In this document: in pieces, positions 391-35,640 of the stretch
Position numbering within the stretch: position 1 is the first letter of the stretch
How the letters are laid out: each line of letters opens with the position of its first letter
Source: a virus
Reading direction: 5' to 3' (one strand)
IMG/VR virus record: IMGVR_UViG_3300022602_000243
Coordinates: 1-36,528 of that record
DNA length: 36,528 nt
Program-made: the position numbers and the translations under genes
Notes under the pieces: model-generated
What the model saw: only the letters and a program-made list of their open reading frames with translations
Database searches by the model: none
Told to the model about the DNA's origin: nothing

Positions 391-413
391 TTGTATACAC
401 CACTCAACGGAAC
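391..413 (-). promoter_or_regulatory. Conserved phage motif, copy a, upstream of the integrase
   Basis: The minus strand reads CGTTGAGTGGTGTATACAA. It matches the motif found before other operons, with two extra bases between the TTGA part and the GGTGTATA core and TATACA in place of TATATA. It ends about 36 bases before the integrase start, on the same strand, so it probably drives or controls integrase. Confidence 0.5.
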
Positions 414-457
414 CTTATGAATACTGGGTATACGGGTGATCCACTCATAAGAGAGAG

Positions 458-485
458 TGGTGCTCGAAGAGGGACTTGAACCTTC
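458..485 (-). other. tRNA 3'-end fragment (putative att core)
   Basis: On the minus strand this reads as a T-arm and acceptor 3' strand: stem GAAGG, loop TTCAAGT, stem CCCTC, acceptor TTCGAGC, discriminator A, then CCA. No matching 5' acceptor strand (GCTCGAA) lies upstream at tRNA distance, and the T-stem has one A-C mismatch, so it is not a complete tRNA gene. Phages that integrate into tRNA genes carry such a segment to rebuild the gene after integration. The parent tRNA could be a leucine type, given the GGTTCAAGTCC context, but this is not decided. Confidence 0.65.
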
Positions 486-532
486 TCAACTACAGAGGGG
501 AATAGGAAACAGAATAGAGTTGTTTCCCAAAA

Positions 533-895
533 TCACGGTTTCAGCTTCAGCTTCTTCAGTGCTGCTTGGGTTAGAAAATCGGTGAGGTAGCATAGGACTT
601 CAGCAGTTTGGTCGGTCTCGTCCACACCCAATTCGGATCGAATGAACATCGAGGCGTGCACCAGTTCGTGTACCAGTATCGCAATGTCCTTGATGCTGCC
701 ATCCCATTTTTTAAGGAAGATTGCGGCACCGTTCCCTTTGCGGGTCGAGTAGCAGGTAAATCCATAGCAATCCTCCAAAGCCTCTTCCTCATACTTCCGC
801 TTCCTCAACCACGCATCCGCTTCCTTTTTTGTGAAGGGATACAAGATGTGGCACCTCGATTCAAAGACCGGAATCCGGACATTGATATGGTTCAC
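533..895 (-). CDS. Small HExxH zinc-metallopeptidase-like protein
   Basis: This 120-residue protein has HELVHA at about residues 79-84, an HExxH zinc-binding and catalytic motif inside a predicted helix, followed by a second helix with acidic residues (ELGVDETDQTAE) that could give a third ligand. This resembles compact SprT- or M78-like peptidases encoded by phages. It uses a GTG start at 895 that overlaps the TGA of the upstream HTH gene (GTGA), which suggests coupled translation. It is the last gene of the leftward operon before the att region. The substrate is unknown; a role in lysogeny or host takeover is possible but not shown. Confidence 0.6.
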   Translation of the reverse strand: MNHINVRIPVFESRCHILYPFTKKEADAWLRKRKYEEEALEDCYGFTCYSTRKGNGAAIFLKKWDGSIKDIAILVHELVHASMFIRSELGVDETDQTAEVLCYLTDFLTQAALKKLKLKP

Positions 896-1143
896 AGTTT
901 GCGGAAAAGGCGAGTTGGACGGCTTGCCAACATCACTTTCATGGTTTCAAAAGCACCATCCTTGACTGCTGTTCGGAGCAATTTGTCTGCAGAGTTTCTA
1001 GTCTTTCCGATGGCAGCGGCAATAGTTTCGACGGTGAACCAGTTTTCTTGCTCGTAGCTTTCTATGGTTTTCTTCTCCAATGCTGCTGCGATTGATGACA
1101 ATGCTGACTCACGGAGTTCATGCGCGGATGGGTGTGGTTTCAT
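892..1143 (-). CDS. Small HTH-like protein
   Basis: This 83-residue protein has a basic, helical middle part with a helix-turn-helix pattern at about residues 34-62 (FTVETIAAAIGKTRNSADKLL), followed by a possible wing or strand (GAFETMKVMLASRP). I chose the ATG at 1143 because the longer frame runs deep into the metallophosphoesterase gene; even so it overlaps that gene's end by 26 bases. Its end overlaps the next gene by GTGA. It is probably a DNA-binding accessory or regulator; no specific family is recognised. Confidence 0.55.
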   Translation of the reverse strand: MKPHPSAHELRESALSSIAAALEKKTIESYEQENWFTVETIAAAIGKTRNSADKLLRTAVKDGAFETMKVMLASRPTRLFRKL

Positions 1144-1924
1144 TGGGTGTGTAGGTGATGGGAATGATGGCAGGAATCTCACCGTCAGGTGTGATTGACC
1201 AATCGAGGATCGTACCCCCGCAGGCGCATATAGAGTCACCGACCACTTTGTGCCCGTAGCGGGTCAGCACCTGCCATGCAGGGGTCACGAGGAATAGACC
1301 TCGACCGTCCGAGAAGTGACCTCCGACATGCCTGTGCCCACGGGCAAACACCTTGGGGACGCGATGTCCGGATCGAGCGTAGTTCTGCCTAGCGTTGCCC
1401 ATCGTTATAGACATTGCTCCTGCCTCTAGGTATGCCCTAGAACTCGTCGGCATGTGGTGGGCAATGTCCATGAGGGTTCCGTTCACCTCGATGAGTGCTT
1501 TGTCGCCACACCACTCTCCGTTGAGTTCGGCGCAGATGTACTTTTCAAAATCACCCACATGGCATTCGGTGCCTGCGGTGAAGAACCTGCGCCTTGCTGC
1601 CTTTGCCAGTTTGGAAAGGATAACTACCGCAGCGGCTGCATGCTCCATGTTCTTGGAAACCACGATTTCCGTTGTCCCGTGATGGCGACCCTCGATGAGA
1701 TCCCCGTTGCAGATGAGGTAGAAAGGTCGATCCTTAAAATACTCCAGCACCCTCTGCTCAAAGTCCTGCCAGCAATCCCACAACCACCGTTGATGGAGAT
1801 TGTTCCCGATGTTGACCGTGTTCCCTGTATCAGTCTCACACCCGTCGGGCCAGAGGGCTACGGCACTACCTGCGTGGATATCGGAGACGATTACGACTCC
1901 TACCTTTTCTCGGTTTTCAATCAT
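1118..1924 (-). CDS. Calcineurin-like metallophosphoesterase
   Basis: The 268-residue protein shows the ordered motifs of the metallophosphoesterase fold: SDIHAG near residue 14, CNGDLIEG near 75, GTECH near 115 (in place of the usual GNHE/D), HH near 155 and GHRH near 195. Such enzymes hydrolyse phosphodi- or monoesters with two metal ions. The start ATG at 1924 is fixed by an ATGA overlap with the stop of the GH75-like gene upstream; the frame extends further but would overlap that gene. Its place after the lysis genes and before the integrase marks it as accessory. Candidate substrates are nucleic acid ends or nucleotides, but the sequence does not decide. Confidence 0.8.
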   Translation of the reverse strand: MIENREKVGVVIVSDIHAGSAVALWPDGCETDTGNTVNIGNNLHQRWLWDCWQDFEQRVLEYFKDRPFYLICNGDLIEGRHHGTTEIVVSKNMEHAAAAVVILSKLAKAARRRFFTAGTECHVGDFEKYICAELNGEWCGDKALIEVNGTLMDIAHHMPTSSRAYLEAGAMSITMGNARQNYARSGHRVPKVFARGHRHVGGHFSDGRGLFLVTPAWQVLTRYGHKVVGDSICACGGTILDWSITPDGEIPAIIPITYTPNETTPIRA

Positions 1925-2514
1925 AGTGGTTGGAGTTGGAATCCTTCTGCTGGTTTGTTGGGGTAGAAGGTGTACCGGAAGAAAGGGTCGGAACACCCTC
2001 CGTAGCGTGGGGATGGGTTAAGACCTAGTTGCCGCGCCATGGCAACAGATGCTTCTCCGATATGGTTGTTGGGGCCAAGGTCAGCAACGACTCCCTGCAC
2101 CTTGCGATTGGTGCGAATGTCTTCAACGGTGGCTACACACCCCAGAACAACACCAGTGGCTTCCCGTGCGATAATAACCGGAACCACGATGAACGGAACA
2201 ACATCAGCATTCACATATCTACGGGGATCCGTTCGTGCGTAGTTCTTGTTCTGAAGAGAAGTTGTAGAAATGTAGAAGTTTGGAAATGGATCAGATGGCC
2301 CCTGCAGGATTGGAGATCCGTAGTCGTTGGTGACAATCCCCCACCAGTTGCCCGTGTGTCCTGCATTCCCAAGATCATCAAGACCTACACGGGGATCCGG
2401 TGAGTAGCAGTTTGGGGCACCGTCTGCGTCTACCGTGAGTCCTGCCACCCACGAGATCGATAGGTCATCTTTTTGAACAATATCCTGACCGGATATGTTG
2501 CCTAAAACTCTCAT
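1921..2514 (-). CDS. GH75 (chitosanase-like) glycoside hydrolase, candidate endolysin
   Basis: The 197-residue protein resembles the glycoside hydrolase family 75 fold along its length: GLTVDADGAPNCY near residue 26, an aspartate-rich GLDDLGNAG loop near 44, YVNADVVPFIVVP near 100, and VVADLGPNNHIGEASVAMA near 142, where conserved aspartate and glutamate residues lie. Family 75 was defined on fungal chitosanases, and related domains occur in bacteria and phages. Here it sits at the end of a cassette of membrane proteins and a lipoprotein, so the likely role is host wall degradation at lysis. No other endolysin is seen in the window. It overlaps both neighbours by ATGA and has no signal peptide. 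Confidence 0.7.
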   Translation of the reverse strand: MRVLGNISGQDIVQKDDLSISWVAGLTVDADGAPNCYSPDPRVGLDDLGNAGHTGNWWGIVTNDYGSPILQGPSDPFPNFYISTTSLQNKNYARTDPRRYVNADVVPFIVVPVIIAREATGVVLGCVATVEDIRTNRKVQGVVADLGPNNHIGEASVAMARQLGLNPSPRYGGCSDPFFRYTFYPNKPAEGFQLQPL

Positions 2515-2780
2515 GTGCTAGGAGGGGATTGGGAGTTATTTCCAAAGCTAGATCCTGCCACCTCGATGCCTTTTCGGATCACCCCACCACCGAGAATTGT
2601 GTATGCAAGATCCGTAAGGAATCCCTTCATGCTCTCATTCAATGGGTGGTCGCACCAGACATCTCGGATGACCACGACTCCGATGAGAATCATAAAAACA
2701 GACCCCACCCACCTCATCCAAGAATCCTTGGAATCCTCGGAATGAATACTGCGGATATATGCAAAGAATCGATCTCTCAC
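2511..2780 (-). CDS. Small membrane protein, candidate holin
   Basis: This 89-residue protein has one strong hydrophobic segment (residues about 22-39, WVGSVFMILIGVVVIRDV) and a weaker amphipathic glycine-rich one (residues about 54-72), with a charged N terminus and a polar tail. I chose GTG at 2780 because it makes a GTGA overlap with the upstream membrane gene, as at other junctions; a later ATG at 2717 is possible. Small size, membrane segments and its position directly before the hydrolase suggest a holin. No specific holin family is recognised. Confidence 0.55.
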   Translation of the reverse strand: MRDRFFAYIRSIHSEDSKDSWMRWVGSVFMILIGVVVIRDVWCDHPLNESMKGFLTDLAYTILGGGVIRKGIEVAGSSFGNNSQSPPST

Positions 2781-3205: not shown

Positions 3206-3408
3206 CGTGATTGTTGAAGCAGGACTGCCTTGTAATCGATTCGGTCGTTGATACTGCTTGCGGTGTCAATACACCCATCAGCAGACGGAGTATAACGCAC
3301 TGCGTTATTGGCGCATCCCGCAAGATTGGCAACGACCAGCAAGGAAAGAATCATCACGAGTGCTGCCATGATTGCTGCTGCCAGTTCTTCTTTATGGTGT
3401 GGGGACAT
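3202..3408 (-). CDS. Small lipoprotein, candidate outer-membrane spanin
   Basis: This 68-residue protein has a hydrophobic stretch (about residues 11-28) ending in the lipobox LAGC, so Cys32 would be lipidated after signal peptidase II cleavage, leaving a short mature peptide of about 37 residues. A small lipoprotein whose gene overlaps the end of a single-TM coiled-coil gene (3392-3646) by 17 bases in another frame recalls the Rz/Rz1 spanin arrangement. The mature part is not proline-rich as in lambda Rz1. Spanins imply a Gram-negative host. Confidence 0.55.
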   Translation of the reverse strand: MSPHHKEELAAAIMAALVMILSLLVVANLAGCANNAVRYTPSADGCIDTASSINDRIDYKAVLLQQSR

Positions 3409-4656: not shown

Positions 4657-4660
4657 AGGA

Positions 4661-7592: not shown

Positions 7593-7618
7593 CTTTGTGG
7601 AGGTGTTCTAGCAGTCGG

Positions 7619-7641
7619 ATATATACACCTCAACCTGTTTT
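7619..7641 (-). promoter_or_regulatory. Conserved phage motif, copy b, before the tail fibre operon
   Basis: The minus strand contains AACAGGTTGAGGTGTATATA, identical over 20 bases to copy d at 18713-18737. It lies 27 bases before the tail fibre start and faces away from copy c, which points at the plus-strand gene. No sigma70 -35 box lies at normal spacing from the TATATA. Confidence 0.6.
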
Positions 7642-7663: not shown

Positions 7664-7686
7664 CTGCGGGCGCGAGGGTGTATACA
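7664..7686 (+). promoter_or_regulatory. Conserved phage motif, copy c, plus strand, at the start of the lone plus-strand gene
   Basis: The plus strand reads CGCGAGGGTGTATACATG, a diverged copy of the motif core (GAGGTGTATATA) and the only one in plus orientation. It runs straight into the ATG at 7686. It may act as a promoter giving a leaderless mRNA, or GAGGG may serve as an SD sequence 7 bases before the ATG. A TTGACA at 7652-7657 is 23 bases from TATACA, too far for a normal sigma70 promoter. Confidence 0.45.
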
Positions 7687-7943
7687 TGAAATACCTCCTT
7701 GCACTGATCGTTGCAGGTTCGGTTGTTGCCCACGCAGACCTAGACAATGCAGGTATCGAGGCAGGCAATGCCCTTTACGCACAACTCACCAAGGCAGTAC
7801 CTCCCGCCAATTCCTTGGCAGACACATCCGGTCAGATCGCCATCATGAAGGAAGCAATGAAGGATATCGAGATGCAGCAGAAGATGCAGCAGATTGCCCA
7901 TGATGAAGCAATGGCAGTCCTGCCTACTTATCCTACTAGGTAG
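7686..7943 (+). CDS. Small exported protein, the only plus-strand gene
   Basis: The 85-residue product has a classical signal peptide (KYLLALIVAGSVVAHA, cleavage probable after AHA at residue 17) and a polar, helical mature part with a Met/Gln-rich segment (MKEAMKDIEMQQKMQQIAHDEAM). It is encoded opposite to all other genes, between the divergent tail fibre operon and the convergent end of the giant virion gene, whose stop is one base away. It has its own motif copy. This is the profile of a moron: a gene expressed separately, perhaps from the prophage, acting in the periplasm. No family is recognised. Confidence 0.65.
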   Translation: MKYLLALIVAGSVVAHADLDNAGIEAGNALYAQLTKAVPPANSLADTSGQIAIMKEAMKDIEMQQKMQQIAHDEAMAVLPTYPTR

Positions 7944-7944: not shown

Positions 7945-10900
7945 TTATTCGTTCGCGTTCTGCACTGCACCTGCTGCAGCCTTGCCCGTGTTGCTCCATG
8001 CAGCGACACCGGAGAGACCCTTGGCTAGAAGATCCTTTTGGAAAGCATAGGAGAGTGACCATGCCGCAACGATGGAGACATCCTTGACCATGTCGGCATA
8101 ATCTTTTCCGGTCATCTCGTCATTCTTCATGTGCTGGTAGATGTGGTATCCACCACGGGCCATGTCAGATAGAGGGTTGCCTGCTGCGTAGAAAGGATTG
8201 TGTCCTGTGATCGCAGCTTTCAGTGATCCGGACGCAAACGGGCCAATAATCGGAACACCGTAGATTGGCCCCGTGGCAAGGGATGCCACCAGTTCCTTCC
8301 AATTCTCTGCCTCTTCCTTTTGCTGATCCGATCCGCAAATCATCGTGTAGGCAGTCTTCACCAACCATTCCACGGCACCGGATGCTGCCCATGTTGCCAG
8401 AATCTTGCCGTAACGGTCTGCCTTGATGCCTGCTGCCTCCAAAGCGGATTTGCCCTCGGAGTCGATTTTGGCACCACGGTACAAGTTGATGACCGATGCC
8501 AATGCCTGCTGCGCTGGGCCTGCGTAGAGTTGCATCCAATCTGGGCCGACCTTGCCCCAACTGGAGATTGGCTTATCTCCACGGAAAGTCGGGTTCATAC
8601 GCTCGTGCAGCATCTGATCGACCTGCTGTTGAGCGTAGGAGTGTGCCTCCGCATCAGACATGCCAAGACCCTGCGCTTCCGTAAAAGCAGCGTCATAGCG
8701 GACTGCTCCACTCCATGCTGCAGACACATTAACGGTTGCGTGTAGGGGAACCATGGACATCTTTGCGATTTGCTGTCCGGTCAGTGCAGCACCCTGCATG
8801 AAAGGGGATGACCACTCTCGTGCTGCCTGTAGTGCATCAGCACCCGTCTCGGAGTGCGCTGCGTCTGCGAACCTACTCACGACCTTATCTTTGATCATGG
8901 CATTTCCACCAAAGAATGCGTTCCTAGGTGCAAGTCCGGTTCCTACACGCAGTGCCGATAGGATGTACTGTGTCGGGGAAATCTCGGACAGTGGTGCCAA
9001 ACCGACATTGATGTGCTTGGCAGCAGTCGGGATCGATCCACCGAGGGTTGCGACCGACATTACCGAGGCAAACATCTTTTTGAGATGCATGTCTTGGTTG
9101 CTCATGTTCTGGGTGGTCTGCTTGTCGCGGGAGAGCACCTTCATGTAGTTCTTGAGGAAGTCGCTATGGTTAGCGTTCTGGGAACCAATGGATCGCAGCA
9201 CCTGCGTGTCTCCAAAGATGGCGCGGAAATCCCGCAGGGTTTCGGCATGCGAGACCCAGTAGTTCACATTCATCATGTGGTTCTGCAGCTTGGCCCATGC
9301 ATTGTCGTAACGCAGAATGCCACCGAAATTGCCTCGTGACTTTGTCCATGAGGGTTGGCTCGACGCACCACCCGCCTGACCATCATCCATGTCGATGATC
9401 TTCTCCGGTTCGGAAGTGTCAAAGGTAAGGGGGGCGTAATTTTCCACACGGGGAAGATCGACTCCGTACAACCTGCGGAATACGGGATTGATGCGGTCGT
9501 AGTTGTCGTATGCTTGTTTGGCTAGGTCGTAGACATCCTTTGCCTTGGACTTCATGACGAGGTCACGGATCTTGGCAACCACATCGGGAGTCAGTCCATT
9601 GCGCTCGACCTTCTGAATGGAATCGGGTTGTTCCGCTGCAGTGAGAGCATCGACAAATTGAAGCGTGGAAAGGAGAAGTTCCTCTTCCGGACTTTCCTCG
9701 GTGAGTTCGTGGATATCGATGCGCTTGATCTTGCTGTTATCGGGATCAGACAGCACCCGCATCAGATTGTTGTACTCACGGTCGGTGATTAGTCCTTTGT
9801 AGTTGTCGAGTTCGCCACGGTCGATTGTGCGTACTTTGTACACATTGTTCGGACGGATCTTTATGCCCGTCTTTTTCAATGTCGTGGAAAGTTCGGAAAT
9901 GATTTTTTGAACCTCTAGGGTGCTTGCGGGTTTGCCGTTCTTTCCCCACTTCTCTCGGAGTGTCTGGATGGCATCGTGCTGGAATTTGATGTTGGCATCT
10001 GCCTCGTCATTCTGGGCCTTGTTGAGCCTTTGCACCCACTCATCACCGAGAGGGGAGTTCTTGAGGATCTGACGGAAAAGTTGTGTCGGAAGCAGAAGGT
10101 TGTCCGTGCGCTTGCTCGGTGTCGCTTTGCCAGAGGCATCCTTGTCTCGTGCAGACTGCACCGAGGTTGGAGTTCCCTTCTTGCCACCGTTGACAATATC
10201 CATCACCTGCTGACGGATTGCTTTGTTTTGATCGGAACGAGCTTTCTTCTCTGCGTTGAACTCAAAGCGTCCGTTCTGGATGATGTCCTTGAGTTCCTCG
10301 ACTGCGGCACCCATCCGGTCAACATCAGACCTGCGGAGTTCTGCTGTCTTGAGCTTGCCATCGGCATCAGTCATGGACATGCCACCGTGCGTGTTAGCCA
10401 ACCATATCTGCGTGTCGAGTTTGTCGATCTTGGCCTGACGAGCATCCTCGTCGATAGTGCCCTCACCATTCTCTAGTTTGTCCTTTTCAGCCTGCAGCGA
10501 CTGCACATGAGAATCGACCTCTGCCAAGTCCATGTGGGAATACCTTTGGATGTCGGCAAGGATGGCATGGGTGTCGGCACCAAGTTTTCCCTTGGGCTTT
10601 TCTCCTGCCTTCATCTTGGGTGCTGACTTGTCGAGTAGCTTCTGGTGACGGGTTGAGAAATCGTTTACCAGTGCATCGTCCAATGCTTCCTTGGCCTTGC
10701 GGACGGTCTTCACCAACATGTCGGTGCGTTCGGCATCGGTCGTGAGTGAGGAATACTTGGTGAAAATGTTGCCTTGCTCACCGGAATAGGGGTTGCGCCA
10801 GTTTCGGATGAACTCGGCACGGATCTCCTTGGGGAGTGCATTGATAACCGCATTGATCTCGATGAGTCCCTGCTCACGATACTTTTCCTCTAGGGTTCCG

Positions 10901-13900
10901 GTGACATCACGGGAATCGGCACGGGAGAAAGCATCGATGGTGTCCTGCACCTGCTTGACCTTTTCGCGCATCTTTTCCCAAATGGGGATATACACCTCTG
11001 GGTCAGAATGAATGCGCTTGTCGATCTCGTCTTGGAACTTCTGACGGTCTTCTGCAGAACGGATGGAATAGGTGATTCGGTTGTCGTTTGGGTTGAAGCG
11101 TTCCGAAAGCGGGATGACGTTGCCTGCCTCGTCACGGGTGATCGGGTCTGCGGATTTGATCTCATCCTCTTTAAAGATGACGTAACTGTCGTTGGCTTTA
11201 TTGGGGTCATTTAGTGAATCTTTCAGGCCCTTAAAAACAAAACCGTCAATACCTTGATCGAGGTATTGCTTCCGCACTTTTTCCATCACTTCGGCGGGCA
11301 TAGATGTTCCCGCTGTTAGTGAAGGCATGTATTCTTGAGCTTTCTTTAGCACCTCATCCATGAACTCAATGAACTCGTCATTCCCAAACTTGCGTTCTAT
11401 GTTGAGGTTTCTGGGGATCGCAAGTCTATAGACTCTTCCATTTGGATTGTTTTCGGAACTACCCGTCCACTGTGCTGCTGTCTCCTTGTCACCTAATGCC
11501 ATCCAAGTTCCGATAGCATCACGGAAACCTCGACCACGGTGGAGAGAGTTAAATCGATTAATCTCTTTGTTTGTGCTGCCGTGATAAAAGTTGGTGTAAT
11601 ATCCAGCATCATATAAAGCCTCGTCAACTAGCCTCTGCTGCTCTGCCTCGTCGCCACTCTTGACTGCCGCATCGTATGCCTCGTCACGGGCGCGGAGGGA
11701 GAAAGTGGTAGCAAGTCCACGCTCGACATCGAGAGGAGTCGTTGACCAGTTCAAAGGATAGTCGGGGATTTCTGGGAACAGATCCTTTACATTCCGGAAA
11801 TTTGTCATCCTTGCAATAGGTTCTCCTTTAAGAACATACCCGTATGAAAGGTGCTCTGGTACTCCTGCCTCGGCTGCGGTCATGGGAGTCTGGTCGGGAT
11901 GAAGTTTGATGATTCCGGAGATCGATCCTACAGGCAACCCCTTGAAGGATGGTTCTTCAATATCCCGTACCATTTGCACCGCATCGGGGAATCCCGCCTT
12001 GGTCATCTTTTGGGAAAGCAACGACTGATAGGCAATCTTTTCACCTTCAGACTTGGTAACCGTTTTGCTCTTTTGGAAATAGGTGCTTCCTCGTTTTTGC
12101 TGCGGCATGTCCACAATATCTTTCTTGGCCTGCTCCAAAGTTTTCCACGGTGTCGTGTGGTCGGTTCGGATTTTGGAATTGGCATGCTCTGCAAACAATT
12201 CGCGGATCCTATTGAGTTCTGCCAGTGCCTGCTTCTTGGTCAGTTTTCCAGCATCGATGTTTTCTTGCAGGTCGTGGAACCAGCAATGGGCAAAGGTTTT
12301 GTTTCCGATGACATTTCCTTCCTGCATGAGCATTAGCTTCATGTACCCGCCAGTGGTGGATGCCTTATTGAGTTCACCATTGGCAACACCTTCAGCATTG
12401 TATGCCCAAACAATTCCCTTCTCTAGGTTTTCAAGGATGGTGGGGTAGAACATGCCACCCTGCAGCGGGATTCCTTTGTAATCCCCGACCCTCATTCTAT
12501 CAATCCACATGCCGTATACATGCTCGGTATCTTGGGAAATCTGGTCGTAAATCTCTTTGCTCATATCTGGATACGCAGTGGGAAGCGAACGGATCGAGTA
12601 TGAGGTTTCCGGTGACCATGGGATTTTTTGCCACTCTTCACCCGTTTGCTTGGAGGGATCGAGATCCTCTAGCGGGGTGGATGGAGCATCCGAACCCGAC
12701 TCGGTGCTTTCGTCGGGATGGTATATGGAATCCTTTTCTGGTTTTGGTTCCGCATCGGGTTCACCAGCACGGATCGAGAAAGTAGGTTGCCCTGCTGCCT
12801 CTAGGGGAGGGTTTACCGTGTCTACCAGTTTCTGGTCACTCTTGGGGGCTAATCGGGTCTCTGCAGGCAATCCTAGGGCATTTGCGAGGTATTCGGAAAA
12901 GTCCTTGGGGATCTCCCCCGCATCGACTGCCTGTTTCACATGCTGACCGATCTCCTGTACATCACGGAAGTAGGATGCCATGGACATGAAGTAACCTTGG
13001 AGGTCGGGAGGGTAGGAAGCAAAATCTGCGGTGTGCCCACCAAAGAGGTGCATTCCTGCCTTGGTGACTGCCTCGATCACCTCACGGTCGGTCGGGTCAA
13101 CCTTGTTCGGCATGAACTCCACAGGGGAACCGGAACGGGCAGAGACCACTGCCTCGGTCGCGGCGACCCAATCTTTGAACTGGTCAGCAGAAATCTGACC
13201 GGACTGCAGGAGTCGGGAAGTCCAAGCATCAAGACTCTCGTGAAGGTTGATGTCGGGAGTTCCTTTTGCATTGGTGATCTGGGTGACATACTTGCTAATG
13301 TCGTTCCGCAAGTCCTCGGAAATGGGTGTCGTGGCCTGCCATCCCTCGACCATTGCTTTCACTGCATCCGATCCGTAAGGAAGTTCTGCGGTGAGGATGC
13401 GGTTCTGCACATCGTCTGGTAGCGATTCAAATCCGGAGAGCTTATTAGCAGTGCCGAGTTGGTTGGAAAAGTTGTACTTGAAATTGATCCCGTCGATACC
13501 GTTCTTTGCTGCGTTTTCGCGGATCCTCTGCTCCATGGCAAAGGATTGCAGCAAGTGGATCCTCTCGAAACCGGATGCCAGACTGAACACCTTCCCCGCT
13601 TCCTCTGCATCATTGGTTCGCACCAGTTCGTGGATGTTGCCGTTAATCGGGTCGAGGATGGTTACCACATGCTCTCCGGTCTGCGGGTCGATGTGGGTGC
13701 GCGGAAGGGTGGGATCGTTTTCCGGATTGGTGGCGAGTTCCTGCAGTTTCGCACGGAATGCCTTTCCTGCTTCAACATCACGGGTTGACCATGCAGCACG
13801 GTAGGTGGCAGGGATCTCCGCATCTGTCTTTCCGATAAACAGGTTCTTGTCCATGCCTGCGGCACGGGCTGCGATGGGATCACGCAAGTACGCAATCTGC

Positions 13901-15576
13901 TCTTGGATCTGTTCCGGAGTCAGTTTGTCGTGAGCAATACCACCGAGCAGCATCATCACCGCAAAAGTGGTCGGTGTGTGAATGAGGGTGTCGAGTGCTT
14001 CTTTGGAGAAATCCCTGTCCTTACCGAAATCCTTGTCGAGTGCCGTGGACGCGATATCTCCAGCAAGATCCATGAACTGCGATCCGGTCATCGCACCCGT
14101 GGAAACCGTGCCATGCAGAACTGCGTTGAGCACAGGACGGTCGAGGGCAAGCGTGTTGATTGCCACCTCGGTCGCAGGGAATGCCTTGGCAACCGTTCCC
14201 ATTCCGACCAACTGCAAAGCAGCAGACATCACTCCAACACTGGAAACCTTTGCCTCAATCTCTTTAAGATCGATGTCGGGGTTCTGGGCAATCTGACGGT
14301 CTTGATAATCGACCATTGATGATCCCATCATGTATGCTTCACCCGCTGCAGCACCGAAACGGAAAGCAAGAACATAGGATGCGGCACCGGAGACTTCACC
14401 GATGGCTTTTTCTCCCCACCAATTGCTCTTGATCGGGTTCACCTCCTCATTGGCAATGCTTCGCAGAACCGAACGCATTTTCAGATTGCGGATCTGCCTT
14501 TCAAGTTTTGCAATATAGTTCTTGTTTTGATCTTGCTCCGGAAGTGACTTGTGAAGGTCGAGGTAATCCTGCAGTGGTTGCAGTTTTATCGTGTCCTTGA
14601 TTTTTGGAAGCAACCCCGAAACGGGCCTGCCAATCTGCTGCGCGAGTCGATAAGTGACTGCTGCCATGGGACTGTCACCATCTCCCTTGTTGGAAAGTTT
14701 CGCGTATGCACGGACAAGTGCGCGAACTTTGGGGATATCCTGCGATGGTACTTCTGCGAGTTTGTCGGCAAGACGGTCGGCAACCTCACTGGAATGCGTC
14801 ACCGGACGGATTGTGGATTCCGCATCGGGGTTGCTCATGTCAACACCCAGAGCATTCTGAACCTGCCTGACGGCACCCTTTGCCTTGTTTGCTATGTCAT
14901 CGGTGGGGTTGTCATTCTGGAAATTCTGGACGATCTCCTTGGCAAGTTGACCATACGGAGACTGCACGGCATGCCTCGCGGGGATGTATGCCTGCATGAA
15001 GGCATTCATTTTCTGCGATTCCGGTACACCGACAAACGATCCTGCATGTTGCGTGTTCCACTCCTGATATCGTGAAAGCATCGACTTGTTCATGCCTGCA
15101 TCTGCATCCTCCATGTCATCTTGCAGTGCTTTATTACGGGCCTCGTCGATTGCCGTAGATTGCTCATCGGCTACCCTAAATTGGTTTCCAAGGGTTGAAC
15201 GGAATTGACCCTCGTTGTTGGGCATGTCGAGGTTGTTCTCTTTGATGAACTTCTGTTTCTGATACTCGTAGTTCTGGGCAATGTCTTCAGGTGCCTGACC
15301 CGTGAACAGGGAGAGTGCCTTGATGTTCATACCGAGGTCTCGGTACTCCTGCGGGTTCTCATCCGCAGGTGCCTGACTGATCACATTGGGAGTCAGTCCA
15401 CCGTTGTTGTTTTTATCGGCAAAGGCATCGCGGAACTTGGCCCTCTCTGGGTCAGACGCAATGTTAATGTTGTAGAGTTGCGGTGCCTGTGGCGCATCCT
15501 CGAAATTGTTCAGACTCGATGTGAATGGAGTCTGGAGATCAAGGGACGGTTGATCAGTTTGGGTTGTATCAGACAT
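7945..15576 (-). CDS. Giant internal virion / polyvalent protein with ADP-ribosyltransferase-like domain
   Basis: At 2543 residues this is the largest gene, in the slot of T7 gp16, so it is probably packed in the head and ejected with the DNA. Residues about 380-560 include hydrophobic, glycine-rich segments. FSIR-like tetrapeptides at about 932 (FSIR), 991 (YSIR), 1289 (FSLR) and 1501 (YSIR) mark off modules. The 1289-1501 module has FYHGST near 1330, an A-A-Q-W segment, and YVIFKEDEIKSADP followed by GNVIPLSERFNP, as in the ADP-ribosyltransferase domains of large polyvalent phage proteins. The 991-1289 module (GGMFYPTILENLEKGIVWAYN) also resembles a polyvalent-protein domain. Residues about 2080-2530 are rich in small hydrophobic helices that may contact membrane. 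No lysozyme motif was seen. Enzyme activity is inferred. Confidence 0.75.
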   Translation of the reverse strand: MSDTTQTDQPSLDLQTPFTSSLNNFEDAPQAPQLYNINIASDPERAKFRDAFADKNNNGGLTPNVISQAPADENPQEYRDLGMNIKALSLFTGQAPEDIAQNYEYQKQKFIKENNLDMPNNEGQFRSTLGNQFRVADEQSTAIDEARNKALQDDMEDADAGMNKSMLSRYQEWNTQHAGSFVGVPESQKMNAFMQAYIPARHAVQSPYGQLAKEIVQNFQNDNPTDDIANKAKGAVRQVQNALGVDMSNPDAESTIRPVTHSSEVADRLADKLAEVPSQDIPKVRALVRAYAKLSNKGDGDSPMAAVTYRLAQQIGRPVSGLLPKIKDTIKLQPLQDYLDLHKSLPEQDQNKNYIAKLERQIRNLKMRSVLRSIANEEVNPIKSNWWGEKAIGEVSGAASYVLAFRFGAAAGEAYMMGSSMVDYQDRQIAQNPDIDLKEIEAKVSSVGVMSAALQLVGMGTVAKAFPATEVAINTLALDRPVLNAVLHGTVSTGAMTGSQFMDLAGDIASTALDKDFGKDRDFSKEALDTLIHTPTTFAVMMLLGGIAHDKLTPEQIQEQIAYLRDPIAARAAGMDKNLFIGKTDAEIPATYRAAWSTRDVEAGKAFRAKLQELATNPENDPTLPRTHIDPQTGEHVVTILDPINGNIHELVRTNDAEEAGKVFSLASGFERIHLLQSFAMEQRIRENAAKNGIDGINFKYNFSNQLGTANKLSGFESLPDDVQNRILTAELPYGSDAVKAMVEGWQATTPISEDLRNDISKYVTQITNAKGTPDINLHESLDAWTSRLLQSGQISADQFKDWVAATEAVVSARSGSPVEFMPNKVDPTDREVIEAVTKAGMHLFGGHTADFASYPPDLQGYFMSMASYFRDVQEIGQHVKQAVDAGEIPKDFSEYLANALGLPAETRLAPKSDQKLVDTVNPPLEAAGQPTFSIRAGEPDAEPKPEKDSIYHPDESTESGSDAPSTPLEDLDPSKQTGEEWQKIPWSPETSYSIRSLPTAYPDMSKEIYDQISQDTEHVYGMWIDRMRVGDYKGIPLQGGMFYPTILENLEKGIVWAYNAEGVANGELNKASTTGGYMKLMLMQEGNVIGNKTFAHCWFHDLQENIDAGKLTKKQALAELNRIRELFAEHANSKIRTDHTTPWKTLEQAKKDIVDMPQQKRGSTYFQKSKTVTKSEGEKIAYQSLLSQKMTKAGFPDAVQMVRDIEEPSFKGLPVGSISGIIKLHPDQTPMTAAEAGVPEHLSYGYVLKGEPIARMTNFRNVKDLFPEIPDYPLNWSTTPLDVERGLATTFSLRARDEAYDAAVKSGDEAEQQRLVDEALYDAGYYTNFYHGSTNKEINRFNSLHRGRGFRDAIGTWMALGDKETAAQWTGSSENNPNGRVYRLAIPRNLNIERKFGNDEFIEFMDEVLKKAQEYMPSLTAGTSMPAEVMEKVRKQYLDQGIDGFVFKGLKDSLNDPNKANDSYVIFKEDEIKSADPITRDEAGNVIPLSERFNPNDNRITYSIRSAEDRQKFQDEIDKRIHSDPEVYIPIWEKMREKVKQVQDTIDAFSRADSRDVTGTLEEKYREQGLIEINAVINALPKEIRAEFIRNWRNPYSGEQGNIFTKYSSLTTDAERTDMLVKTVRKAKEALDDALVNDFSTRHQKLLDKSAPKMKAGEKPKGKLGADTHAILADIQRYSHMDLAEVDSHVQSLQAEKDKLENGEGTIDEDARQAKIDKLDTQIWLANTHGGMSMTDADGKLKTAELRRSDVDRMGAAVEELKDIIQNGRFEFNAEKKARSDQNKAIRQQVMDIVNGGKKGTPTSVQSARDKDASGKATPSKRTDNLLLPTQLFRQILKNSPLGDEWVQRLNKAQNDEADANIKFQHDAIQTLREKWGKNGKPASTLEVQKIISELSTTLKKTGIKIRPNNVYKVRTIDRGELDNYKGLITDREYNNLMRVLSDPDNSKIKRIDIHELTEESPEEELLLSTLQFVDALTAAEQPDSIQKVERNGLTPDVVAKIRDLVMKSKAKDVYDLAKQAYDNYDRINPVFRRLYGVDLPRVENYAPLTFDTSEPEKIIDMDDGQAGGASSQPSWTKSRGNFGGILRYDNAWAKLQNHMMNVNYWVSHAETLRDFRAIFGDTQVLRSIGSQNANHSDFLKNYMKVLSRDKQTTQNMSNQDMHLKKMFASVMSVATLGGSIPTAAKHINVGLAPLSEISPTQYILSALRVGTGLAPRNAFFGGNAMIKDKVVSRFADAAHSETGADALQAAREWSSPFMQGAALTGQQIAKMSMVPLHATVNVSAAWSGAVRYDAAFTEAQGLGMSDAEAHSYAQQQVDQMLHERMNPTFRGDKPISSWGKVGPDWMQLYAGPAQQALASVINLYRGAKIDSEGKSALEAAGIKADRYGKILATWAASGAVEWLVKTAYTMICGSDQQKEEAENWKELVASLATGPIYGVPIIGPFASGSLKAAITGHNPFYAAGNPLSDMARGGYHIYQHMKNDEMTGKDYADMVKDVSIVAAWSLSYAFQKDLLAKGLSGVAAWSNTGKAAAGAVQNANE

Positions 15577-18691: not shown

Positions 18692-18712
18692 TGCCGTCTC
18701 GTATAGCTGAAA

Positions 18713-18737
18713 GGTATATACACCTCAACCTGTTATT
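18713..18737 (-). promoter_or_regulatory. Conserved phage motif, copy d, before the internal-virion operon
   Basis: The minus strand contains AACAGGTTGAGGTGTATATA, identical to copy b over 20 bases. It overlaps the last codons and stop of the nozzle gene and ends 21 bases before the cupin gene start. The overlap shows that the motif is kept even where little intergenic room exists. Confidence 0.6.
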
Positions 18738-22824: not shown

Positions 22825-23007
22825 TGTGTGTAGATGGATGGATCTCCTGTGGTTTGGTTAGGGAGATCGGGTTGAACTGATGACCGGATTCCTCTGGTAG
22901 TCCCGATTGGGGCCAGATTCATTGCGGTACAACCCCACCTACACGGGCCTTTGCTTTCACAAAGGTAGTCCCTCGATTGAGTTGATAGATGTCCAGATAA
23001 CAGTTGT

Positions 23008-23033
23008 GGTATATACACCGCAACCGATTTTTT
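23008..23033 (-). promoter_or_regulatory. Conserved phage motif, copy e, before the capsid gene
   Basis: The minus strand contains ATCGGTTGCGGTGTATATAC, shared exactly over 20 bases with copy g, preceded by an A/T run. It lies downstream of a terminator and upstream of the capsid leader, where a strong late promoter would be expected. Confidence 0.6.
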
Positions 23034-24111: not shown

Positions 24112-24323
24112 TTGGTTTCAATGGGGTTGGTGTTGATTTCTTCTAACTGTGCTCGGACGAAAGGTGGCAATACACCTCCCATCAAAAATTCGGCATGCTC
24201 TGATTCTGTGAAGTTCGCTTTGTGCCAGTTCAGAAAATCTGGGTTGTGCCGCATGTCACTGGAAGTGACGGGCCTCCTCGGTTCGCTACTCGGTTTTTGC
24301 TTTTTTGGGTTTTTTGGGTTCAT
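24108..24323 (-). CDS. Small basic protein between portal and scaffold
   Basis: The 71-residue protein has a Lys/Pro-rich N terminus (PKNPKKQKPSSEPRRP) followed by a short helical domain (DFLNWHKANFTESEHAEFLMGGVLPPFVRAQLEE). I chose ATG 24323, which overlaps the upstream gene by 38 bases; ATG 24254 is an alternative with no overlap. Its end overlaps the scaffold start by ATGA. It may be a head-assembly accessory; no family is recognised. Confidence 0.5.
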   Translation of the reverse strand: MNPKNPKKQKPSSEPRRPVTSSDMRHNPDFLNWHKANFTESEHAEFLMGGVLPPFVRAQLEEINTNPIETK

Positions 24324-24558: not shown

Positions 24559-26328
24559 TTACTGACCCATTGCCTGCTGCATCCCCTGCTGAATGGCAGG
24601 TGCTGCGGGTGAGTCTGGTCGAACGGAACCGATCTGCTGCGCGATCTGCGCTTGATGGGCCTGCTGCTGCATTTGGGCCTGCTGCTGCTGCTGCTGGGCG
24701 CGATTCTGACGGATGCCTGCAACTGCCTTGGCATCACGGAGGAATTCGGGATCGACACCGGAGGTCAGAGCTTTCTGACGGGCGATCTTATCCATGTCGA
24801 AATTGTCCATGGGCGAAAGATCCTGCGTCACCTGACAGACCTGCAGGGTAGCCTCGATGATTGGGTCGATGCTGTTCACCTCACGGGATGAGACGGCAAT
24901 CGACATCTTATTGTTGAAGATCACCTTGGGTTCTGGAATGTACTGCTCACCCTTGGGATTCTGCTGAATGAGTGACTGTGGAGGTGCGGGCATCATGCCA
25001 GCACGGGAAAGGATCCCGTACACACGCTTGATGATGGGGATCAGAAATTCTGTGGTCAGTCGTGCGTAGGTCGGGGAAAGCATGGTGAGTTTTTCACTCT
25101 CCATGGCACGAACTTGGGTTGCCGTGATTGCACCCTGTCCACCCGCCTGCATGTCTTCCTGTGCGAACATCTGAAACAACGGCACATTGAAAGCATCCTC
25201 GATGTGCTGCTGCTTCATCTTGATCCGATCCTGACCGATATCGTACCTGCCCTGCGTCATCCATTCACGGGGAATAGCCTGTGGCTTGGTTTCGTCGAAA
25301 TAGGTAATGCCACCAGCACGGAGATCCGGTTCATCAGAAAGACCCTCTGGGATGAGCATGCGGGGGAAGGCAGCAAGTTCGGCAAGGGCATCCATCTGCT
25401 TCTGGAGGAAGTTTAACTGCTTGGCATCCGGTAGTGCCACCCACGCACTGCTCCACCCGTAGGGGGACTGCTGCCATTTGAGGAATCGGGAAACAAAGCA
25501 AGGAGGTTCATCGAATCCGGAGTTACGCAGGAGTTTCTTGGTGCCGAGTTCGATGTGAACCGAGGCAATGGGTTTATTGGGGCCATCGATCTTGCCCTTG
25601 GTGCGTTCCTTCTCGTTGCGTGGGTAGATTGCCCAGATGACATCGAGCTTCTGCTCCAGACCCTTACCGTCTCCGAGTTCGTATGCCTTGCGGGTCTTCT
25701 CGCTCACATTGGAGAGACCGTACTCCTCGACCACTTGCCTGACGGTCATCTCACGCTTCACAAAGATCGTATCGACATATCCCTCGTTGTTTTCACTGAC
25801 TCGGAAGGTGCCGACATCGAAAGTCCTAAAGAGCAGGTTGAAGTCATCCGTCTTGTCCACAAACATGGCGCAGGTTCCAAAGCAGGAACGATCCAGATAT
25901 GCCTCATGCGCCACTGCGTAGAAATTGGAACGGGCAAGCTCCTGCAGAATGATCTTGGAGCACTCTGCGTAGTATTCGTTCACACCCTCCTGATCCTCGA
26001 TCTCCTCCGGTGCCGATAGTGCTACCCAATTGGAATCGGCATCGTTGACATACGACATGATGCCTGCTGCTTGGGTCTGACAGGCACGGACTGCGGTGGT
26101 GTCATAGAGTTGCGTCTCACGGTCTAGGTTTGGCCCGTACTGCTGGTTGAGAATGTAACTCTTCCTCGGCATGACATAGGTCGAGAGCACCTGCCACATC
26201 TGCATCCAGTAGGAGGCATCGGCATCGAGTGCCGACCACCGTGCCGTGATCTGGGATGAGAGCTTGGTCTCGGAGACCTTGGGTGTCTTTACACCCTCGT
26301 CCGTTACCGTGGGAGAATCCTTTGCCAT
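24559..26328 (-). CDS. Portal protein (head-tail connector, T7 gp8-like)
   Basis: The 589-residue protein matches the podovirus portal family: ASYWMQMWQVLSTYVMPRKS at residues about 38-57, YDTTAVRACQTQAAGIMSYV, WVALSAPEE, YLDRSCFGTCAMFVD, FDVGTFRVSENNEGYVDTIF, YGWSSAWVALPDAKQLNFLQ and MESEKLTMLSPTYARL. The C-terminal tail is rich in glutamine (about residues 545-585), perhaps the flexible barrel end. Twelve copies form the channel for DNA packaging and the tail docking site. It starts in a TAATG overlap with the gene upstream. Confidence 0.93.
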   Translation of the reverse strand: MAKDSPTVTDEGVKTPKVSETKLSSQITARWSALDADASYWMQMWQVLSTYVMPRKSYILNQQYGPNLDRETQLYDTTAVRACQTQAAGIMSYVNDADSNWVALSAPEEIEDQEGVNEYYAECSKIILQELARSNFYAVAHEAYLDRSCFGTCAMFVDKTDDFNLLFRTFDVGTFRVSENNEGYVDTIFVKREMTVRQVVEEYGLSNVSEKTRKAYELGDGKGLEQKLDVIWAIYPRNEKERTKGKIDGPNKPIASVHIELGTKKLLRNSGFDEPPCFVSRFLKWQQSPYGWSSAWVALPDAKQLNFLQKQMDALAELAAFPRMLIPEGLSDEPDLRAGGITYFDETKPQAIPREWMTQGRYDIGQDRIKMKQQHIEDAFNVPLFQMFAQEDMQAGGQGAITATQVRAMESEKLTMLSPTYARLTTEFLIPIIKRVYGILSRAGMMPAPPQSLIQQNPKGEQYIPEPKVIFNNKMSIAVSSREVNSIDPIIEATLQVCQVTQDLSPMDNFDMDKIARQKALTSGVDPEFLRDAKAVAGIRQNRAQQQQQQAQMQQQAHQAQIAQQIGSVRPDSPAAPAIQQGMQQAMGQ

Positions 26329-26726: not shown

Positions 26727-26740
26727 TGGGGTGGTGATAT

Positions 26741-26770
26741 TGTATACACACCTACGACTCAACCGATTTT
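26741..26770 (-). promoter_or_regulatory. Conserved phage motif, copy f, with an insertion, before the portal unit
   Basis: The minus strand has AAAATCGGTTGAG, then TCGTA, then GGTGTGTATACA. The two halves of the motif are kept but pushed apart compared with copies b, d, e and g. The first half contains the stop codon of the upstream gene (26759-26761). It ends about 14 bases before the start at 26726. Confidence 0.5.
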
Positions 26771-30298: not shown

Positions 30299-30329
30299 TG
30301 CTTTGAAGTAGTGAGAAGATATCGGCGCG

Positions 30330-30354
30330 GGTATATACACCGCAACCGATAATT
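30330..30354 (-). promoter_or_regulatory. Conserved phage motif, copy g, before the SSB-like / DUF3310 / terminase genes
   Basis: The minus strand contains ATCGGTTGCGGTGTATATAC, identical over 20 bases to copy e. It is the second of two tandem copies (with h), ending 31 bases before the start at 30298. Confidence 0.6.
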
Positions 30355-30376
30355 GTGTATACACCTCAAACCTTTA
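30355..30376 (-). promoter_or_regulatory. Conserved phage motif, copy h, tandem with copy g
   Basis: The minus strand reads AAAGGTTTGAGGTGTATACAC. It lies directly upstream of copy g and includes the stop codon of the DnaC-like gene (30366-30368). Two copies spaced about 25 bases apart may bind cooperatively or give two start sites. Confidence 0.5.
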
Positions 30377-31886: not shown

Positions 31887-31887
31887 A

Positions 31888-32220: not shown

Positions 32221-32417
32221 TCGACTTCCTCCTCTGGAATCTCCACTGCGGCAATCACCGCATCTAGGGGGAGATCGATTTCTAGTCTTCCCATGGTCAG
32301 GCCAAGCAGAAAACCTGCTTTCCACCGTTCCTCTGGGTTGGGGATCTGGTTGCCTTTTGCAAGCATCCGGATTCCCTCTTTCTGCCAATACTCTTCTGCA
32401 ATTTGTTGGTCGTTCAT
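32217..32417 (-). CDS. Small acidic protein of 66 residues
   Basis: The product has a helical N terminus (DQQIAEEYWQKEGIRMLAKG), a central WKAGFLLGLTMGRLEIDLP and a glutamate-rich end (EIPEEEVE). ATG 32417 starts two bases after the TATATAC of motif i, so the mRNA may be nearly leaderless or use AGGTG as its SD sequence. It overlaps the DUF1064 gene by ATGA. No family is recognised. Confidence 0.6.
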   Translation of the reverse strand: MNDQQIAEEYWQKEGIRMLAKGNQIPNPEERWKAGFLLGLTMGRLEIDLPLDAVIAAVEIPEEEVE

Positions 32418-32419
32418 TT

Positions 32420-32437
32420 GTATATACACCTGTGGTT
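32420..32437 (-). promoter_or_regulatory. Conserved phage motif, copy i, core only
   Basis: The minus strand reads CCACAGGTGTATATACAA. The GGTGTATATAC core is perfect but the upstream TCGGTTGA half is absent. It overlaps the stop of the upstream gene and ends two bases before the start at 32417. Confidence 0.45.
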
Positions 32438-34251: not shown

Positions 34252-34898
34252 ACAACGACCTCCTTCTTGCTGAATGCGACAACCTCGTCCCAGATCTCCG
34301 TCAGACGCTTGAGCATGTTGACGGGTATCTCTGGAATATACTCGATGGTCGGATCGAGGTTCACTTTCTTTTCGGAGGTCAAGAACTCCAAGACGATGGT
34401 GTCATCGACTCCGGACTTGGTCATCAGGTCGGAAACCCTCTTGACCCAATCGACCTTGGGTGCCCGTGCGACAACCTCGTGAGTCTCGTGGTCGGGATCC
34501 TTCTGTTCCTCGGTAGGAATGAGGAATGTCTGAAGCAATGCGTACTTGTGGGCAATCGCCATTGCCTTGTTGATCGCTTTGTCACCGGAGTCCATTGCCT
34601 CACCGATCACCTGCGTGTCGATGAACGATCCGTCTTCTGCTACAAACCGATAAGTCATCGGGAGGGTAACGAACCGGAGAACCGTTCCGTTTTTGTTGGT
34701 GCGTTCCTCGGAGGAGGGGACACCTGCCATGGGTATGGTTACGATCCCATGCTTGGCTAGGAGTGAGTGCAGTTCGTTGTAGACTGCGTCGATGCCACGG
34801 AAGTTGAAGTTCTGGGCTTGGTTTCGAGAAGATTTCCCGATGTGACCGATATCTCGCATGACCGAGATCATTGCGGAATGGATTTTCATGTTGCTCAT
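34248..34898 (-). CDS. ERF-family single-strand annealing recombinase
   Basis: The 216-residue protein has the ERF core: QAQNFNFRGIDAVYNELHSLLAKHGIV at residues about 27-53, FVTLPMTYRFVAEDGSFI and GEAMDSGDKAINKAMAIAHKYALLQTFLIPTEE. ERF proteins anneal complementary ssDNA and help circularise or recombine phage genomes. It is translated with the exonuclease gene (ATGA overlap). The start has TAACCAACACCC before ATG, with no SD sequence. Confidence 0.9.
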   Translation of the reverse strand: MSNMKIHSAMISVMRDIGHIGKSSRNQAQNFNFRGIDAVYNELHSLLAKHGIVTIPMAGVPSSEERTNKNGTVLRFVTLPMTYRFVAEDGSFIDTQVIGEAMDSGDKAINKAMAIAHKYALLQTFLIPTEEQKDPDHETHEVVARAPKVDWVKRVSDLMTKSGVDDTIVLEFLTSEKKVNLDPTIEYIPEIPVNMLKRLTEIWDEVVAFSKKEVVV

Positions 34899-34907
34899 GG
34901 GTGTTGG

Positions 34908-34988
34908 TTAGAGGCGGGTTGAGATGCGACCGAGGGTGAATGTGGTGACCACTAGGGCCATCACTAGGACTGCTTGGTATGTGTTCAT
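34908..34988 (-). CDS. Very small membrane protein of 26 residues
   Basis: The product is one hydrophobic helix with a short basic tail (YQAVLVMALVVTTFTLGR then ISTRL). It starts at ATG 34988, 35 bases after motif j, and ends nine bases before the ERF start, so it would be first in the recombination operon. No SD sequence is visible. Too short for family recognition; a chance frame cannot be excluded. Confidence 0.4.
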   Translation of the reverse strand: MNTYQAVLVMALVVTTFTLGRISTRL

Positions 34989-35023
34989 GTTGCTTTTGGT
35001 TTTTGGGTTACTTGCACCTGCGG

Positions 35024-35041
35024 CGTATATACACCTTGGGG
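35024..35041 (-). promoter_or_regulatory. Conserved phage motif, copy j, before the ERF operon
   Basis: The minus strand reads CCCCAAGGTGTATATACG. The core is perfect and the upstream half is absent, as in copy i. It would drive the recombination and replication genes (34988 leftwards). Confidence 0.5.
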
Positions 35042-35122
35042 CAAAAGACTGTGCCTGCTGGAAAGAGACGGGTGAGGAATTGATTCCAGATAAGATTGGG
35101 ACGATCCCCGTGGTATTCGGTG

Positions 35123-35141
35123 GCAGGTACATAGTACCTGC
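35123..35141. promoter_or_regulatory. Perfect palindrome, candidate operator
   Basis: GCAGGTAC (35123-35130), ATA, GTACCTGC (35134-35141) is a perfect inverted repeat with 8-bp arms and a 3-base centre. It lies between the HTH gene (ending 35168) and motif j (35024-35041), about 80 bases upstream of that motif. No T-run follows on either strand, so an operator fits better than a terminator. The remaining 35042-35167 shows no gene. Confidence 0.5.
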
Positions 35142-35167
35142 TGGTTCCGAGGGTGAATTTCTGGGTG

Positions 35168-35449
35168 TTATCCATGGGATTCTACAAGGGTGTCCAGATC
35201 GATAACCTTTATGAGACGGGTGCGACCTAGTCCGTATGATTTGAGTTGACCTTGCTTCAAGAGTTTGTATATGAAGGCAGGTGTCACGGAGATGCGTATT
35301 GCTGCCTCCTTGGGACGGAGATAGGTCGGTGTGTTTACACCCTGCGCCAATTTTTTGCGGAGTTGAGTGGTGAAGGATTGCATGGTTTGGGATGAGATGT
35401 CCTCGGTGGTTTCTACTTCCACCGGAACGAGGTCACTTTGTTTTGGCAT
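35168..35449 (-). CDS. Excisionase-like HTH DNA-binding protein
   Basis: The 93-residue protein has a MerR/excisionase-type domain at about residues 42-90: YLRPKEAAIRISVTPAFIYKLLKQGQLKSYGLGRTRLIKVIDLDTLV, with helix-turn-helix then wing. The N-terminal 40 residues are acidic and Gln-rich. Such proteins act as excisionases or small regulators. It lies beside a palindrome and motif j, so control of the ERF operon is as likely as excision. It overlaps the RHH-like gene by 17 bases. Confidence 0.75.
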   Translation of the reverse strand: MPKQSDLVPVEVETTEDISSQTMQSFTTQLRKKLAQGVNTPTYLRPKEAAIRISVTPAFIYKLLKQGQLKSYGLGRTRLIKVIDLDTLVESHG

Positions 35450-35603
35450 CTGATTTTGCTTTTAGGTAGTTGGATAATTCCTTCTTGAGAAAATCTCCTG
35501 CGGAGAGTCCCTCCAAGTCGGAAAGTTTTTTTAGAGCTTCAATCTCCTGCGGAGTTAACCAGAGGGTCTTGAGCTTTTTGCCTTTTGCTCTTTGGTTTGG
35601 CAT
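35433..35603 (-). CDS. Small ribbon-helix-helix-like protein
   Basis: The 56-residue protein starts with a basic segment (MPNQRAKGKKLKTLWLTPQ), whose strand KTLWLT is followed by two helices (EIEALKKLSDLEG, SAGDFLKKELSNYLKAK), the layout of Arc/MetJ-type ribbon-helix-helix regulators. It starts at ATG 35603, 18 bases after motif k, and overlaps the HTH gene, so both regulators are made together. Confidence 0.6.
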   Translation of the reverse strand: MPNQRAKGKKLKTLWLTPQEIEALKKLSDLEGLSAGDFLKKELSNYLKAKSDAKTK

Positions 35604-35621
35604 GAATTGAAACTAGTAGAA

Positions 35622-35640
35622 GTATATACACCTGTCAAGG
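35622..35640 (-). promoter_or_regulatory. Conserved phage motif, copy k, before the two small regulators
   Basis: The minus strand reads CCTTGACAGGTGTATATACT. The core is perfect, with CA between TTGA and GGTG. A TTGATC lies 17 bases upstream of TATATA (35647-35652 region), so this copy alone could also work as a weak sigma70-type promoter. Confidence 0.55.

Follow-up and report, generated by a model that had tools for sequence, protein, structure and literature searches.

A 14-bp dyad, GGTGT-N4-ACACC, recurs at promoters and within genes of an uncultured freshwater phage (IMG/VR virus record IMGVR_UViG_3300022602_000243), and from sequence comparison we consider it likely to be the operator of a phage-encoded DNA-binding repressor, most likely the small protein p04, that would silence phage genes and serve lysogeny. 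The window analyzed here is the 36.5-kb virus record at its full length (36,528 nucleotides), termed G000, whereas other G numbers denote related metagenomic virus genomes. Its gene set is podovirus-like and lies nearly entirely on the minus strand; it comprises a terminase, the virion genes for portal (head-tail adaptor), capsid, tubular tail proteins, fibre and an internal virion protein, and a DnaC-like loader, a primosomal protein, an Erf-like annealing protein and an exonuclease. In total 13 related genomes or contigs were compared. Searches with portal and capsid yielded metagenomic virus contigs, mostly 54-100% identical at the capsid, and a contig scan yielded one relative, in a Spartobacteria metagenome-assembled genome (MAG). 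Identical ends of 29-175 nt in G001, G002, G008, G009, G011 and G012, all records classed as linear, suggest that these are probably circularly complete genomes, G008 with its 29-nt overlap being the weakest case. Cultured phages are distant, the best being Pelagibacter phages and an environmental phage record at ~30% identity.

The original prediction described eleven copies of an oriented intergenic motif with the core GGTGTATATAC, read either as a promoter for a phage polymerase or as a site bound by a master regulator. Each of the eleven copies was confirmed at its stated place, and the core stands well above chance, with 28 matches at up to two mismatches against 2.9 expected from shuffles (none of 100 shuffles reached 28). 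The unit itself had to be redrawn, as the element found across the relatives is a mirror-image site, of which GGTGTATATAC covers a strong half and the centre together with a degraded second half. Exact GGTGT-N4-ACACC occurs in 43 copies in nine genomes at a half spacing of 4, while every other spacing from 0 to 20 gives only 0-3 copies, and 0-0.05 exact dyads per genome are expected under a first-order Markov model. A plain 10-12 bp palindrome, GTGTATACAC, was replaced by the 14-bp dyad after comparing G010-G012, G007 and G008. Imperfect and perfect forms interchange at orthologous places: the p14 promoter carries GGTGTATATACCCG in the window and the perfect GGTGTATTGACACC in G007 and G008, and at the tail-fibre promoter the window has GGTGTATATATCCG, the MAG contig GGTGTATTTACACC and G010 GGTGTGCGTACACC. 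Both forms are therefore one element, and about 12-14 sites each are present in G000 and G001 when dyads with up to one mismatch, or a perfect half plus centre, are counted. Between these two genomes no difference is seen in 75 positions of the left half, whereas 165 of 900 flanking positions differ (p=5e-7), and the motif is found again at orthologous gene boundaries in the relatives. The dyad is phage-specific: in the 3.6-Mb Spartobacteria MAG all three exact copies fall on its two phage-like contigs, which speaks against a host regulon in this MAG; the operator is also usable as a sequence tag for phage contigs. An 8-mer enrichment over the whole G010-G012 genomes returned coding repeats only.

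At most promoter sites TTG[AC] is a separate sigma70-type -35 box, with a -10-like hexamer exactly 17 bp on that ends 6-12 nt before the start codon. The promoter-associated sites of the window are as follows.

35619-35632, minus strand: operator GGTGTATATACTTC of the p04 gene, between -35 TTGACA (35633-35638) and -10 TAGTTT (35610-35615), 17 bp apart
32417-32430, minus strand: operator-like site GGTGTATATACAAA immediately ahead of the start codon of p10; clear promoter boxes absent
30352-30365, minus strand: first tandem site GGTGTATACACAAT before p14
30328-30341, minus strand: second tandem site GGTGTATATACCCG before p14; weaker boxes, -35 TTGCGG (30340-30345) and -10 TATCTT (30316-30321), 18 bp apart
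26739-26752, minus strand: operator GGTGTGTATACAAT at the portal operon start, between -35 TTGAGT (26757-26762) and -10 TATCAC (26734-26739), 17 bp apart
23006-23019, minus strand: operator GGTGTATATACCAC at the major capsid promoter; -35 TTGCGG (23018-23023), -10 TTATCT/TATCTG (~22994-23000)
18711-18724, minus strand: operator GGTGTATATACCTT at the promoter of the short tail fibre gene (p28); -35 TTGAGG (18723-18728), -10 TATACG (18700-18705), 17 bp apart
7616-7629, minus strand: operator GGTGTATATATCCG at the promoter of the tail fibre gene (p33); -35 TTGAGG (7628-7633), -10 TAGAAC (7605-7610), 17 bp apart
7677-7690, plus strand: half-site GGTGTATACATGAA adjoining the start codon of p32, which is encoded on the opposite strand at 7686-7943; retained in G001 and G015
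388-401, minus strand: half-site GGTGTATACAAGTT at the integrase gene, just upstream of -35 TTGATA (384-389); -10 TATTGG (361-366), 17 bp apart

The aggregate promoter score of seven orthologous groups (17-bp spacer, ending 4-14 nt before ATG) reached z=5.9, matched by none of 300 shuffles, and sites of the window and G001 scored higher than 56 control starts (Mann-Whitney p=6.5e-5). A sigma70-type arrangement, that is, a TTGACA-like -35 and a TATAAT-like -10 separated by 16-18 bp, is found in aggregate; it is not seen at p10 and is weak at p14, where the boxes lie farther from the start codon and are clearest in G007 and G008 as TTGCAG-17-TACAAT with GGTGTATTGACACC between them. The earlier statement that a sigma70 -35 box at 17 bp is missing from most copies arose because TATATAC was taken as the -10. 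Since the -10 ends 6-12 nt from the start codon (before 35603, 26726, 18691, 7592 and 354), leaderless or nearly leaderless mRNAs are implied; a Shine-Dalgarno-like 4-mer is present at only about a third of the genes. Reading GAGGTG as a Shine-Dalgarno sequence is possible before p10 and p32 and fails elsewhere, where the start codon is 15-36 nt or more away. The paired operator-like sites before p14 (30328-30365) lie 24 bp apart, are tandem in G001 too, and form the only pair seen.

Comparison of orthologous promoters revealed that the dyad moves while the promoter stays. Its offset from the -35 spans -14 to +28 around constant TTG-17-TA boxes. The TTG half and GGTGTATA are indeed separated by a gap of variable length, as noticed at the outset, and this reflects an operator shifting within a fixed promoter. 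In the p33 promoter, G000 has the dyad at the -35-proximal end of the spacer and G002 and G009 have it in mid-spacer; in G008 and G014 it overlies the -10. In the p28 promoter it lies at the -35 in G000, G007 and G008, but is reversed and overlies the -10 in G002 and G009. These latter two genomes also carry it reversed before the major capsid gene, inside TTGACC-17-TAAACC, whereas ten capsid loci of the second phage group hold TTGAC-17-TACGCA/TATGCA with the dyad over the -10. In the p04 promoter, GGTGTCTATA directly follows TTTACA or TGGACA in G007, G008, G009 and G002. Orientation along transcription accordingly describes the window (GGTGTATAYA is forward nine times, and reverse once before the one large opposite-strand gene) but breaks down among the relatives, where the motif is reversed before p28 and the capsid gene of G002 and G009. 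Such shifting and flipping around fixed boxes fits the operator of an occluding repressor and is not expected of a polymerase element or a positioned activator. We thus propose that a symmetric protein (two subunits or two dimers) would read the full 14-bp dyad and, when bound, would shut host-type, sigma70-like promoters by covering the -35, the spacer or the -10, with the putative targets including the regulator gene itself, integrase, replication, portal, capsid, tail and fibre genes.

An activator site, for example for late genes, is an improbable reading of the same geometry. It would suit the sites at the late capsid and tail operons, and the mostly imperfect -35 boxes (TTGAGG, TTGCGG) resemble those of activator-dependent promoters. 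Activators other than MerR types, however, do not usually work between or over the -35 and -10 boxes, where most of the sites lie, and the wide range of offsets is equally hard to reconcile with activation; repression is also the better fit for the dyads at the integrase gene and at the regulator gene, whose own promoter is a good one (TTGACA).

Location at gene boundaries was claimed for all copies, and this holds for the subset originally listed except 35024-35041, which actually lies inside the 3' end of a small open reading frame (ORF). All three perfect dyads of the window had been missed, and all three are intragenic, as given below together with the near-perfect copies.

35328-35341, minus strand: perfect dyad GGTGTAAACACACC inside the p05 gene; G001 and G007 have a perfect copy as well
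35022-35035, minus strand: near-perfect dyad GGTGTATATACGCC in the 3' end of a small ORF; G001 has the perfect form GGTGTATAGACACC
26282-26295, minus strand: perfect dyad GGTGTAAAGACACC inside the portal gene, 33 nt from its start; found in seven genomes
24163-24176, minus strand: near-perfect dyad GGTGTATTGCCACC close to where p23 and p24 meet; unchanged in G001, G007, G008 and G014
3262-3275, minus strand: perfect dyad GGTGTATTGACACC inside the gene of the lipoprotein-like p39; also kept in G001 and G015
2128-2141, minus strand: near-perfect intragenic dyad GGTGTGTAGCCACC in p41

Intragenic dyads over the relatives use all three reading frames (18/10/6, with the frame taken from the longest open frame); the constraint therefore acts on DNA rather than peptide, and a GVxTP peptide motif is ruled out. 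Only one of 60 intragenic half-site positions differs between G000 and G001, compared with 69 of 360 in the flanks (p=1e-4), and in the portal gene the dyad is retained 21-33 nt after the ATG in seven genomes amid an otherwise variable N-terminus. Under the repressor model, the perfect intragenic dyads may act as roadblocks to elongation or as extra sinks for the repressor.

These copies also bear on the reading of the motif as a core promoter element, or -10, recognized by an RNA polymerase or sigma factor that the phage encodes or modifies, which we regard as very improbable. Many copies do stand at operon starts, mostly oriented along transcription, and TATATA inside the motif occupies the -10 position in a few relatives (p33 in G008 and G014). 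Perfect copies inside genes in three frames, normal-looking 17-bp -35/-10 boxes relative to which the motif varies in position and orientation, and dyad centres in relatives such as ATTG, GCGT or ACGC, which abolish TATATA, all speak against it. The Sigma70_r4 domain was absent from seven genomes (the window and six relatives, five or six of them apparently complete) with working controls; T7-type RNA polymerase (PF00940) gave no match in the seven genomes in a search without a working positive control, and no polymerase-like PHROG match appeared among the proteins scanned. The other half of the original prediction, a binding site of a master regulator, is supported by a phage-specific dyad conserved in the phage group and placed at most operon promoters.

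The integrase and the two candidates for such a regulator are encoded as follows.

1-354, minus strand: p45, tyrosine recombinase (integrase) of which only the N-terminal part lies within the window; complete in G001
35433-35603, minus strand: p04, 56-aa CopG-like ribbon-helix-helix (RHH) protein beside the integrase, candidate regulator
35168-35449, minus strand: p05, HTH_17/excisionase-like protein, second candidate regulator

The complete p45 homolog of G001 matches PF00589 with E 8e-6 and 26.1 bits, ~1 bit under the curated cut-off of 27.1, and holds the conserved R...H..GH..Y residues in the integrase pattern R...HTF...GHTNPTLLYSTYA. Given this tyrosine recombinase, the phage is probably temperate, and lysogeny together with superinfection immunity would be the likely purpose of the proposed repression.

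We favour p04 as the most likely regulator. Its gene sits between those of the integrase and the excisionase-like p05, and p04 and p05 are the small DNA-binding proteins recognized in all complete genomes of the group. The p04 model (pLDDT 83) places helices at 18-31 and 35-55 after an N-terminal strand region, as expected of the RHH fold (~45-60 aa); profile and structure model match CopG and Arc, with CopG the best among natural repressors and NikA matched too, and the G011 ortholog clears the RHH_1 cut-off. The invariant residues M1, R5, K9 and W15 fall in the N-terminal arm and strand region, with which RHH proteins touch DNA. The p04 promoter carries the site in G000, G001, G007, G008, G002 and G009, and p04 would control its own promoter. 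Wherever a genome of the group is complete or nearly so, p04 and the dyads occur together, and the distant G004 and G013 have neither. Another RHH-like protein, p03, is ruled out as the regulator, since the apparently circularly complete G001 has the sites without p03. G010 and G011 show an unusual array (L068-L071), a row of four small RHH-like genes between the integrase gene and the p05 homolog, consisting of p03-like, p04, CopG/RHH_3-like and Arc-like members.

Several observations weigh against this reading. The Foldseek E-values of p04 are weak (best 0.08), as expected for only 56 residues, and the co-absence of p04 and dyads in G004 and G013 is confounded with phylogeny, p05 having nearly the same pattern. 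The half-site is constant between two phage groups, yet the strand residues of p04 differ (LKTLWLT vs RIAIWLL), and this makes the assignment less secure. On the promoter side, single-site scores with an E. coli position weight matrix are modest and become strong only in aggregate, and a convincing promoter was not found at p10 nor within 4-14 nt of the p14 start. Finally, a plain dimer operator does not account for the left-right asymmetry and mostly constant orientation of the promoter sites, which hold a perfect half facing the -35, a worn other half and an A/T-rich centre.

It is also conceivable, though we judge it unlikely, that the regulator is p05, doubling as a repressor in the manner of Cox or Xis. 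This protein co-occurs with the dyad as well as p04 does, being present wherever p04 is in complete genomes; its gene itself carries a dyad, and the name given to its PHROG family is excisionase and transcriptional regulator. Yet its recognition-helix region differs between phage groups (TPAFIYKLLKQGQ vs GLRTLYRWIECGK) while the half-site is constant, and the dyad is inverted, whereas Cox/Xis sites are usually direct repeats. We give equally little credence as to the polymerase promoter to the idea that the dyads are centromere-like (parS-like), packaging or structural sites. CopG/Arc-fold proteins do act in partition and mobilization as well, to which the NikA match of p04 would correspond, and the sites are genome-wide and within genes; however, they are enriched in promoters in register with the -35/-10 boxes and dispersed rather than clustered, and the phage has an integrase, while a partition ATPase was not recognized in the PHROG/Pfam scans.

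A repressor such as p04 acting through many operators would have counterparts among known phages. The C1 repressor of P1 is one master repressor that silences lytic genes through 22 dispersed asymmetric 17-bp operators (PMC8546580). The present phage likewise combines an apparently temperate lifestyle with many copies of one regulator site across its genome; in contrast, its site is a 14-bp dyad and a C1-like protein was not recognized in it. In L5 and other cluster A phages, a monomeric helix-turn-helix (HTH) repressor, itself autoregulated, binds many short sites (stoperators) in promoters and elsewhere; these are asymmetric, 13 bp long and mostly oriented along transcription, and repression is lost if they are reversed (PMC9283540, PMC6550527). 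The sites described here are also many, short, mostly transcription-oriented and found in promoters and elsewhere, but they form a dyad with a half spacing of 4, occur reversed in orthologous promoters and are often inside genes, and an HTH_3 (CI-type) repressor was found in none of the seven genomes at E up to 0.1, with controls positive in 14 of 14. Because the site is symmetric and such a repressor was not recognized, the proposed system belongs to neither the P1 C1 nor the cluster A type.

Phage phiC31 also uses dispersed inverted-repeat operators across lytic promoters with one repressor; its operator sequence differs and its repressor is much larger. Literature searches returned nothing on point for phiC31 inverted repeats or for RHH lysogeny repressors. 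CopG (pMV158/pLS1) and Arc (P22) have a small RHH fold, as predicted for p04, and the proposed system would share their autoregulation and an operator overlapping the promoter; CopG and Arc, however, act on one or two operators, whereas p04 would act at a dozen sites spread over the genome. A bolder version, which we offer tentatively as possible rather than probable, is that in a temperate podovirus group, probably of Verrucomicrobiota, p04 is the sole master repressor and works via a dozen dyad operators scattered over the genome, with the intragenic dyads as symmetric elongation roadblocks, so that the stoperator principle would have been invented independently. The proposed system would be a third kind of genome-wide operator network, this one with dyad-symmetric sites, and perhaps contribute the smallest lysogeny master repressor. 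Together, the operator, its promoters and the candidate repressor offer a testable regulatory code for uncultured, apparently temperate phages without a close cultured relative.

As for the host, two contigs of the Spartobacteria MAG, C496 (L074) and C45 (L067), are parts of a related phage. They hint at a verrucomicrobial host for the phage group, only a hint since binning can err, and the host of the source phage is probably a verrucomicrobial bacterium. Two further genes of the window stand out. One, at 7945-15576, encodes a 2543-aa protein without a Pfam or PHROG match, whose homologs in the relatives are very variable and reach ~3200 aa. The other, the weakly metallophosphoesterase-like p42 (1118-1924), appears unusually strongly conserved, with 83-97% identity across relatives, in some of which the portal is only ~67% identical.

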